A stretch of DNA of 14,391 nt from Pasteurellaceae bacterium (lineage in GTDB: Bacteria > Pseudomonadota > Gammaproteobacteria > Enterobacterales > Pasteurellaceae): assembly GCA_900756875.1 (NCBI GenBank), contig CAAELW010000119.1, positions 1 to 14,391 on the forward strand. The letters run 5' to 3'. The first letter of the stretch is position 1. Each line of letters opens with the position of its first letter. Positions 1 to 14,391 of this stretch are shown here, one piece after another. The position numbers and the translations under genes are program-made. The notes below the pieces were generated by a model. The model saw nothing but the letters and a program-made list of their open reading frames with translations. It searched no databases and was not told where the DNA came from.

Positions 1-52
1 GCCGATGGTAGTGTGGGGCTTCCCCATGTGAGAGTAGGACACCGCCAGGTAC
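1..52 (+). rRNA. rrf: 5S ribosomal RNA, 3' end (partial)
   Basis: The first 50-odd bases match the 3' half of bacterial 5S rRNA: GCCGATGGTAGTGTGGGG, then TCCCCATG, GAGAGTAGG and the closing GCCAGG. The gene is cut by the left window edge, so a 16S-23S-5S operon presumably lies to the left and is read rightward. The exact 3' end (50-52) is placed by comparison with remembered E. coli 5S. A terminator follows about ten bases later. Confidence 0.93.
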
Positions 53-61
53 TGAATGTAG

Positions 62-94
62 AACCCCGAGCTGAATGGCTTGGGGTTTTTGTTT
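62..94 (+). terminator. rRNA operon terminator
   Basis: A 10-bp stem, AACCCCGAGC (62-71) with GCTTGGGGTT (78-87, one G-T pair), encloses a 6-base loop and is followed by TTTGTTT. This is a standard intrinsic terminator for the rRNA transcript coming from the left. Between it and the next hairpin (95-172) I see no gene. Confidence 0.88.
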
Positions 95-172
95 ATGGAG
101 TTTTTTTAAAGATTACTTTGACAATATAAGTGTGGTAGAAAGTTAGGCTATTTTTACGTAGAGAATATATAA

Positions 173-5962: not shown

Positions 5963-7576
5963 TTATTTTTCTTTAAGTTTGATTTTTTGCCCAGTCACGA
6001 CTTTGCCGTTTTTCAATGTTGGATTCAGTTTCAAAAGACGATTAACCGGTACATTGTATTCACGAGAGATAGCATAGATAGTTTGATCGGCTTTCACCGT
6101 ATGGTAAAGCGGGATTTCTTTCTTGCCATTATCTTCCTTCTCATTTCCTTTTGACGAAGTATCTTTTTTATCGTTACCTTTTTTCTCAGGCTCTTTTTTA
6201 CTCTCGGTTTTTTCTTGTTTTTTATCTTTTTTAGAAACGGCTTTTTCAGTTTCAACAATCTTGCTGTTTTTCTCTTTGTTATCAGCTTTGGCTTTATCAT
6301 CCGATTTAGGTTTTTCTTCTACCTTTTTGCCTTTTCCATTATCAGGAATTTTAATGGTTTCATTCAGCCAAAGTTCTTTACGTTTCAGTTTATTTAACTC
6401 AATAATTTCACTGACTTTTACATCGTATTTGTTCGCTAGGCTACCAATGCTTTCACCTGGTTTCACTTTATGACGGACGCCGCTGTCTTTCACATCGGAA
6501 GTGCGGTCAGATTTTTCGATGTTTTTCTCTTCTTTTTTAGTGGGTTCTTCCGCCTTTTTGCCTTTGCCATTATCAGGAATCTTAATGGTTTCATTTAACC
6601 AAAGTTCTTTGCGTTTCAGTTTATTTAACTCAATGATTTCACTGACTTTGACATCATATTTATTCGCCAGGCTACCAATGCTTTCACCCGGTTTCACTTT
6701 ATGGCGAATACCGCTATCTTTCACATCGGAAGTGCGGTCAGATTTTTCATTATTTTTGTCGTTTGATTTTGTAGATTTGCTGTCTTGCTCATCACTAGGT
6801 GGAACAGCAATCGCTTTTAAATTACCATTGCGATAAGCGACTAAGCCTTCATAAATCATGTAAGCAATACGACGACGATAAGCAATGGTATTCAGTTTTT
6901 GTTCTTCTTCCATATTGGAAAGGAAACCTGTTTCCACCAGAACAGAAGGGATATCAGGTGAACGCAATACACCAAGGCTCGCATGTTGTGGTGTGCTGCG
7001 GCTTAATGAAGTCACGCGAGCAAAACGACGTAGAATGCTGTTACCAAGTTCATAGCCTGTACGTTGGCTGTGACCAAATTGCAGGTCGAGTACAGTTTGA
7101 TCTAAATATTTGTCATTGTTATTGGAAAGTACTTTACCGGCTCCGCCTAAAAGCTCAGAGCGTTTTTCATCGTCTTCTAACCATTGGCCCATTTCATCGT
7201 TGGCACGGCGATTGGATAGCACCCAAACAGATGCACCACGTTGGTCTGCATTAAGAGAGGAGTCGGCATGGATAGACACGAGAAAATTTGCTTTGTATTT
7301 ACGTGCAATTTCGGAACGTTCCGGCACGGAAATGTAGTAATCGCTACTGCGAGTTAAAACACCTTTGAAATTAGGATCTTTATCTAATAAGGCTTTTAAT
7401 TCTCGCGCGATAGAAAGGGTGACATTTTTTTCATAAATGCCGAGATTTTTTCCGATTGCACCGGGATCTTTACCGCCGTGGCCGGGATCAATGGCAATTG
7501 TCCATTGTGGTGCGGCAAATACGGTAGTAGAAATTAGAGAAAATATTCCAAAAAGAAACGAAAATTTTGCTTTCAT
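5963..7576 (-). CDS. amiB: N-acetylmuramoyl-L-alanine amidase with three LysM domains (AmiB type)
   Basis: This is a periplasmic zinc amidase that cuts the stem peptide from MurNAc to split septal peptidoglycan; in E. coli AmiB is switched on by EnvC at FtsEX. Residues 1-21 form a signal peptide (K-rich start, hydrophobic core, VFA/AP cleavage). The Amidase_3 domain spans about 25-250, with zinc-type ligands H33 (DPGHGG), E49, H103 (SIHAD) and catalytic E215 (VETGFLSN). A variable insert at about 125-170 fits the autoinhibitory helix of this family. LysM domains lie at about 291-333, 368-411 and 491-534; the first two are near-identical copies. A Lys/Glu-rich linker (about 417-488) separates the third. 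At 537 residues it is longer than E. coli AmiB (about 445), because of the duplication and linker. The start has only a weak Shine-Dalgarno, 11 bases after tsaE. Confidence 0.95.
6323..6517 (-). repeat. amiB tandem repeat, downstream copy (LysM2 plus linker)
   Basis: This encodes residues 354-418, from EKSDRTSD through the second LysM to GKGKK. It matches the copy at 6554-6748 at an exact offset of 231 bp (77 codons). By hand I count about 16 base differences in 195, of which only one changes a residue (Val here, Ile in the other copy). Confidence 0.93.
6499..6507 (+). repeat. DNA uptake signal sequence (amiB repeat copy)
   Basis: GGAAGTGCGGTCAGATTTTT, encoding SDRTS in the linker before LysM2. 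It is one of two copies spaced 231 bp by the tandem duplication. Confidence 0.9.
6554..6748 (-). repeat. amiB tandem repeat, upstream copy (LysM1 plus linker)
   Basis: This encodes residues 277-341. It is the partner of 6323-6517. The repeat starts exactly where the uptake signal is encoded (SDRTS), so each duplicated unit brought a copy of that signal. The 12 codons between the two 195-bp blocks (about 342-353) are not part of the strict match. Confidence 0.93.
6730..6738 (+). repeat. DNA uptake signal sequence (amiB repeat copy)
   Basis: The partner copy before LysM1, with the same flanks (GGAAGTGCGGTCAGATTTTT). Confidence 0.9.
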
Positions 7577-12856: not shown

Positions 12857-14056
12857 ATGATTTATCGATTAACTGGCCAAGTACAGCATTATGCATGGGG
12901 CGGAAAAAACTATATTGCATCATTGATTGGATTAAATTCAGCGAAAGATCAACCTTGTGCTGAGTGGTGGTTAGGTGCGCATCCATCAGCACCTTCTGAA
13001 ATTGAGAATGTAACAGGTAAACAATCCCTTATTGAATTTTTATCGCAAAATCCGACCGCTCTTGGGCAAGCAAGCCGTCAGCAATTTGGTGATGAACTTC
13101 CTTATTTGTTAAAGATTTTAGATGTTGAAAAGCCGTTGTCGATTCAATTGCATCCGACTAAAGCCCAAGCTGAAAAGGGCTTTGAAGCTGAAAATGCAAA
13201 AGGTGTGGCATTAACTGATAGTACTCGTACTTATAAAGACCAAAACCACAAGCCTGAAATGATGATTGCGTTATCAGATTTTTGGCTTTTACACGGTTTT
13301 AAAACAAAATCTCAAATGCTTGCTACATTAAATGCGCGCCCCTCTTTGCAACCTTTGGCTAAAAAACTCGACACACAAAGCCTTGCTGAATTTTATGCAG
13401 ATGTGATGTTGGCGGATCAATCAACGCTCGCAAATTGGCTATTACCTATTATTGAAGTTAATCAACAGTCTTATAAAAATGGTGAGTTGGGGCTAGATAA
13501 CCCCGATTATTGGGTGCTTTATACCATGGAAGCCATGGCGATTTCACCTAAAAAATTAGATGCCGGCTTGGTGTGTTTTTATCTCTTTAATATCGTGCAT
13601 TTAAAAGAAGGGGAAGGTATTTTCCAGGATGCAGGGATTCCTCATGCTTATCTTCGCGGGCAAAACGTGGAATTAATGGCTTGTTCTGACAATGTGATTC
13701 GTGGTGGCTTAACACCAAAATATGTCGATATTGTCGAATTATTAAAAATTGTGGATTGTCGCGAAGTAACACCTCAAATTATCTCAGCGGCACCTCAAAA
13801 TCAGTCAGAATTTACTTATAAAACGCCAGTAAACGATTTTGCTTTAGCTCAAATTCGTGTTGAACCACAACAACATACTGAATTGAATCTTCAAAGTGCA
13901 GGTATTTTGTTGGTGATGCAAGGTGAGTTGAAAATGCAAGAAAAATCAGCCGTACTTACCTTGAAACAAGGTGAGTCAGCATTCATTACAGCAGATTCTA
14001 ATGTTGAAATAATGAGTGAAAAAGGCGGTTATGCCTTCTTGGCAAAATTACCATAA
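12857..14056 (+). CDS. manA: Mannose-6-phosphate isomerase, class I
   Basis: ManA interconverts mannose-6-phosphate and fructose-6-phosphate, letting mannose enter glycolysis or supplying mannose for surface sugars. The 399-residue cupin protein shows the zinc ligands Q97 and H99 (SIQLHP), E134 (DQNHKPEM) and H263 (DAGIPHAYLRGQNVELM), with R282 in SDNVIRGGLTPKYVD. The N-terminus (HYAWGGKNYI) is typical. AAAGG stands 6 bases before the ATG. It follows the crr terminator by 28 bases; the position next to the PTS fits use of PTS-delivered mannose-6-phosphate, though linkage alone does not prove that. A near-miss uptake signal (one mismatch) lies at 13055-13063. No U-tract terminator follows it. 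Confidence 0.97.
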   Translation: MIYRLTGQVQHYAWGGKNYIASLIGLNSAKDQPCAEWWLGAHPSAPSEIENVTGKQSLIEFLSQNPTALGQASRQQFGDELPYLLKILDVEKPLSIQLHPTKAQAEKGFEAENAKGVALTDSTRTYKDQNHKPEMMIALSDFWLLHGFKTKSQMLATLNARPSLQPLAKKLDTQSLAEFYADVMLADQSTLANWLLPIIEVNQQSYKNGELGLDNPDYWVLYTMEAMAISPKKLDAGLVCFYLFNIVHLKEGEGIFQDAGIPHAYLRGQNVELMACSDNVIRGGLTPKYVDIVELLKIVDCREVTPQIISAAPQNQSEFTYKTPVNDFALAQIRVEPQQHTELNLQSAGILLVMQGELKMQEKSAVLTLKQGESAFITADSNVEIMSEKGGYAFLAKLP

Positions 14057-14063
14057 AAATTAA

Positions 14064-14079
14064 TGTGATAAGTATCACG
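14064..14079 (+). promoter_or_regulatory. CRP box 1 upstream of lacZ remnant
   Basis: TGTGA-TAAGTA-TCACG matches TGTGA-N6-TCACA at 9 of 10 positions. Its centre (14071.5) lies about 60 bases before the start predicted from the TATAGT -10, the usual class I place. Confidence 0.7.
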
Positions 14080-14176: not shown

Positions 14177-14344
14177 ATGTTGTTGCCTCGCTATTTTGAA
14201 GATCCGCAAACCTTGCACGTGAATACCACACCACATCATGCTTATTTTATTCCTTTTTCTTCAACAGAAAGTGCGGTCAAAAATACAAGAGAATTTTCCC
14301 CTTGTTGCAAAAAGTCAGTGATATCAAATTCACTGGTGCAATGA
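14177..14344 (+). pseudogene. lacZ: N-terminal fragment of a GH2 beta-galactosidase gene (lacZ), disrupted
   Basis: A good ribosome site (GGGAG, 6 bases, ATG) opens a frame of 55 codons. Its first 30 or so (RYFEDPQTLHVNTTPHHAYF and IPFSSTES) look like the start of LacZ-type glycoside hydrolase family 2 proteins, which begin with an (N/D)P....hVN..P..AYF pattern and run to about 1,000 residues. Beyond about residue 35 the match stops and the frame ends at TGA 14342-14344, with further in-frame stops after it. From about 14280 the DNA instead encodes lacZ sequence on the opposite strand, which supports the identity and shows the gene is rearranged. The upstream CRP-type promoter fits a lactose gene. 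The family call rests on memory of the proteins, not on a search. Confidence 0.72.
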
Positions 14345-14391
14345 CTAATTTGGCTATAGCCTACAAATTGGTAGTTCACATAGACAAATAA
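14242..14391 (-). pseudogene. lacZ: Internal lacZ segment in reverse orientation (partial, enters from the right edge)
   Basis: Read leftward from base 14391 the minus strand is open for 49 codons to TAA at 14242-14244. About the first 36 residues (YVNYQFVGYSQISH, then TSEFDITDFLQQGENSLV) match the sugar-binding domain of GH2 beta-galactosidases, the region near residues 190-220 in E. coli LacZ (CNGRWVGYGQDSR, SEFDLSAFLRAGENRLAV). The family normally continues with VLxW.DGSYLEDQD; here it switches to FLTALSVEEKGIK and stops. So an internal piece of lacZ faces the N-terminal piece across a junction near 14278-14295. YVNY in place of the usual YVNG may be natural variation or decay. The gene's remainder lies outside the window. 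Confidence 0.75.
14269..14277 (+). repeat. DNA uptake signal sequence at the lacZ junction
   Basis: GAAAGTGCGGTCAAAAAT, reading ESAVK on the plus strand and LTALS on the minus strand. It lies where the two oppositely oriented lacZ pieces meet. Confidence 0.9.

Follow-up and report, generated by a model that had tools for sequence, protein, structure and literature searches.

The window, that is, the whole stretch of 14,391 nucleotides analysed here, is a Haemophilus contig and ends on its right side within a lactose gene. Its last 215 bases are two facing pieces of one lacZ gene, preceded by a manA-like gene and a CRP-like site.

1..99, plus strand: left contig end, a multi-copy stretch that recurs seven to eight times, sometimes only in part, in each of six congeners
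12857..14056, plus strand: intact manA-like gene (mannose-6-phosphate isomerase), an ORF of 399 aa directly upstream of lacZ, as in the congener G003
14064..14079, plus strand: CRP-like site TGTGA-N6-TCACG upstream of lacZ, read directly and with the same letters in eight congeners
14177..14303, plus strand: lacZ codons 1-43, identified by translation and by DNA identity to eight congeners
14269..14277, plus strand: uptake signal AAGTGCGGT, one of 11 in the window and also found in normal lacZ
14294..14303, no strand assigned: the joint, 10 bases TTTTCCCCTT common to the two lacZ pieces (11 with some alleles), both of which match across it
14294..14391, minus strand: lacZ codons 139-171, from the sugar-binding domain, reaching the contig end and identified by PF02837 and by DNA identity to eight congeners

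The CRP-like site is named for its likeness to the CRP consensus, and AAGTGCGGT is taken to be an uptake signal. In two of the 11 congeners, G001 and G006, the match beside manA is limited to 47 bases, and elsewhere only short uptake-signal stretches match. G001 is also the nearest genome compared, sharing 45% of the window's sampled words. After its manA, where G003 has lacZ, it carries a cluster (L065 2244-7570) which we presume from its proteins to be citrate-lyase-like, and the position is therefore a variable gene slot. In G008, lacZ is located elsewhere (L064 3492-6533), after an operon that is presumably polyamine-transport-like, and not after manA. The plasmid collection gave two weak matches, from Persicobacter, over the manA part, one of them annotated manA. 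Elsewhere in the window, positions 5963-7576 encode a protein that we take to be AmiB-like, with two nearly identical tandem LysM-like units. A literature search on Haemophilus parainfluenzae and ONPG found no mention of H. parainfluenzae among the matches listed.

The plus-strand reading from 14177 is MLLPRYFEDPQTLHVNTTPHHAYFIPFSSTESAVKNTREFSP, and the minus-strand peptide of the second piece is LFVYVNYQFVGYSQISHCTSEFDITDFLQQGEN. The latter matches the Pfam family Glyco_hydro_2_N (PF02837) with an E value of 9e-7 and 29.4 bits (cut-off 28), as expected for the sugar-binding domain of a GH2 beta-galactosidase (LacZ); the plus-strand piece alone matched no Pfam family. At the DNA level, the first piece, taken with its upstream DNA (query 1-247), is 94-97% identical to the lacZ region of eight congeners, and the second piece is 88-94% identical to their lacZ. 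Chance is excluded for both pieces because of this identity. The first-pass annotation had recognized LacZ-like peptides on both strands, placed head to head and derived from one gene, and this description is borne out by translation, Pfam and DNA identity. Its coordinates have to be revised: the second piece, which it had put at residues ~190-220, corresponds to codons 139-171, and the joint lies in the common 10-mer at 14294-14303 instead of at ~14280-14283.

The two pieces do not diverge equally from the congeners. The first (codons 1-39) differs from the eight congeners by 2.6-7.7%, against 1.7-7.7% (mean 4.2%) among the congeners themselves, and the second by 6.1-12.2%, against 2.0-9.2% (mean 5.5%). 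Another strain or another copy of the gene could be the source of the second piece, a weak indication on 98 bases.

The arrangement of the two pieces was then compared among relatives. Matches were obtained in 40 of the 100 relatives searched, and 32 loci were compared, taken from 30 of them (L003-L032) together with two further loci. Both pieces are present in 26 of these loci, and all 26 have them in the normal order. The other six (L001, L002, L017, L025, L031 and L032), each without one of the pieces, match only through DNA beside manA or through an uptake-signal stretch. The order in L014 was judged from its 94-base match; this locus has in addition a short match on the opposite strand (query 199-244, 46 bases, 78%). 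The more distant genome G035 contains both pieces in two places, each in the normal order by the strands listed. In the normal lacZ of the eight congeners, both pieces are on the same strand, 287 bp apart. Full-length matches include strains of H. parainfluenzae (L069, L080, L087), whose normal lacZ (e.g. L080) resembles the window by its start, its upstream CRP-like site and the presence of both segments; these segments are, however, consecutive on one strand and separated by the 287 bp, unlike those of the window.

Searches for the junctions themselves were made with exact patterns containing few degenerate letters, in collections from which the record of the window itself, and those almost identical to it, may be missing. 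On these terms, neither the window's joint nor the reciprocal joint was found in the 11 congeners, and the window's joint was likewise not found in genome contigs or viral contigs. At the protein level, five words spanning the joint were absent from all 21 protein fragments retrieved (20 by the plus-strand search and one by the minus-strand search). The best protein match, covered at 98%, goes on as normal LacZ and then out of frame. Several short LacZ starts (P0012, P0015-P0017 and P0020) lose the frame in their first 40 codons or so, through natural frameshifts or sequencing errors. P0013, a 41-aa LacZ-start fragment from another contig, departs from the normal sequence just after the uptake-signal codons, and perhaps represents a lacZ broken at this point. 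The C-terminal peptide of P0006 resembles what we take to be a translated sequencing adapter, an artefact among the database lacZ fragments.

The joint can be read directly in the window, and its two arms can be located in a normal gene. In the lacZ of G003, TTTTCCCCTT occupies nucleotides 118-127 and, on the opposite strand, nucleotides 503-512. An inversion at these arms would cover 375-395 bp, from codons 40/43 to 168/171, so that the range of codons 35-215 proposed earlier is too wide. The arm pair is exact in four of the eight congeners and has one altered arm in the other four. No likeness of the two ends beyond the 10-11 bases was seen by eye in the congener sequences. In G003 lacZ, four arm pairs of at least 10 bases were counted within 1 kb, and 50 mononucleotide shuffles gave 3.0 on average; a match like the one at the joint is thus to be expected by chance in lacZ. 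The window differs from all eight congeners at two positions located at most 10 bases from the joint.

An invertible DNA switch was considered for this locus and rejected, on the basis of the single orientation observed in the 26 loci with both pieces and of arms that are short, present at chance level and exact in only half of the eight congeners. The shortness of the likeness between the ends and the inconstancy of the arm pair equally dismiss an invertase site. The uptake signal at 14269-14277 was discarded as a recombination site: it lies upstream of the joint and is unchanged in the lacZ of seven of the eight congeners. Its occurrence in normal lacZ also means that it is not a product of the joint. 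As a separate observation, no recombinase gene was noticed in the window's ORF list.

The position of the contig end adds a further line of evidence. Counted from the arm to its final base, the contig has a tail of 99 bases by the alleles of five of the eight congeners and of 98 by those of the other three. Toy de Bruijn graphs were therefore built from the G003 lacZ with k=99, a value taken from the data and not fixed beforehand. A clonal inversion assembled into one unbroken contig of 4600 bases. Complete normal reads combined with chimeric reads gave a joint piece that ended 99 bases from the arm as a separate piece of 188 bases, and a mixture of both orientations gave the same result. A gap in the normal reads was then inserted deliberately at the first break, as a test of the chimera reading. 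In a first trial without tip clipping, the joint remained a separate piece of 188 bases; with the gap, chimeric reads and tip clipping, a contig running from upstream through the joint was obtained, and it ended 99 bases from the arm. The contig of the window thus ends at the point where the path through a de Bruijn graph would return to normal lacZ.

The left end was examined as well. Bases 1-99 are presumably the 3' part of a 5S rRNA gene followed by the terminator, i.e. rRNA-operon DNA; Rfam at gathering cut-offs reported nothing for this truncated end. Six of 30 loci were set aside because their seed had two or more mismatches. In seven of 24 copies, among them the one that occupies in G010 the same place as the window, agreement beyond base 77 stopped exactly at base 99; in the others it stopped elsewhere. 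An exact stretch of 99 bases shared with any single copy was not shown among the 24 copies compared. A k of 99 is compatible with both contig ends. In G003, the rRNA-linked left end and lacZ are about as far apart as in the window (match starts 1729506 and 1743655 on one contig), and the rest of the contig therefore looks normal.

These observations were weighed against a real and fixed inversion of ~375-395 bp within lacZ, which would leave the gene off in the strain. The relative placement of the pieces fits it, and there is a 10-bp inverted arm at each end. A clonal inversion, however, assembles through in the toy graph, whereas the contig breaks off 98-99 bases after the arm begins, and neither joint was found in the 11 congeners. 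We regard this explanation as quite improbable. The first-pass annotation had favoured such a reading: its head-to-head pieces of one lacZ hold, but the strain-wide inversion switching the gene off loses its support with chance-level arms, joints not found in congeners and a contig that stops at the expected rejoining of the graph. The assembly error near a contig end, which it had also mentioned as a possibility, agrees with the length of the tail and with the graph tests.

A mixture, in which some cells or a close co-resident strain have the inverted gene and others the normal one, shares with the chimera a toy joint piece ending 99 bases from the arm, and a second strain could explain why the second piece is the more divergent from congeners. 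In the mixed graph, however, the joint is separate from the upstream contig, the arms, compared by eye, have nothing in common beyond their 10-11 bases and are exact in half of the eight congeners, and the inverted order occurs in none of the 26 loci; a mixture is accordingly considered improbable. A truncated second copy of lacZ, inserted or copied back tail to tail with a normal copy elsewhere, would fit the higher divergence of the second piece and would supply the normal lacZ that the branch of the graph at the right end presumably needs. No such arrangement exists in the 26 loci with both pieces, and more assumptions are required than for a chimera, which makes this a very improbable explanation. 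We give equally little credence to the idea that a minority of cells underwent a real and reversible inversion of lacZ codons 43-168 at the 10-bp inverted match, forming a lactose-off subpopulation beside normal cells.

The joint is most probably a fold-back chimera retained by the assembler from a sample that also contained normal lacZ, and hence an artefact of sequencing or assembly rather than a real inversion of the gene. Its structure is that of such chimeras: two nearby segments of one template, in opposite orientation, meet at a short complementarity of 10 bases, or 11 for certain alleles. In the tube, a single strand of normal lacZ whose end lies in the TTTTCCCCTT arm would anneal to the complementary arm ~375 bp further along the gene, and would then be extended on the opposite strand. 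Where normal reads over codon 43 are thin, the assembler would extend the manA-lacZ contig with the chimeric reads; the contig would stop one k-mer later, when the chimera, now on the opposite strand, runs back into the path of normal lacZ. We infer in this way a laboratory origin of the joint, an assembler k of about 99, thin coverage at the break and a normal lacZ in the same sample.

Comparable joints have been described. In one amplification study of E. coli, inverted joints accounted for 406 of 475 chimeras, with complementarity of up to 21 bp (PMC1855051). As in the window, nearby segments are inverted at a short complementarity and the intervening stretch is missing; those chimeras stem from multiple displacement amplification, and the likeness of the window to them is one of joint structure. 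Chimeric reads at inverted repeats are also reported for sonicated human libraries (PMC10908179). In these library-preparation products, as in the window, a short inverted repeat in the template marks the joint; they are described for human DNA, unlike the bacterial window (PMC10908179).

Taken together, the normal order in all 26 loci, a joint not found in the contigs searched, arms at chance level and a tail of about one k-mer make the fold-back chimera the best explanation. The divergence of the second piece, the two unique differences near the joint and a graph that needs an inserted gap and tip clipping count against it.

Provided that the sample contains normal lacZ, the lactose gene, with its order of manA, CRP-like site and lacZ, would be an ordinary one. 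If, on the other hand, the joint were real, it would represent a lactose-off variant arising through a 10-bp match. A joint of this kind at the end of a contig can be mistaken for a gene inversion or a phase switch. A tail that extends about one k-mer beyond a short common arm is an inexpensive warning, and the sequence alone is enough to check for it.
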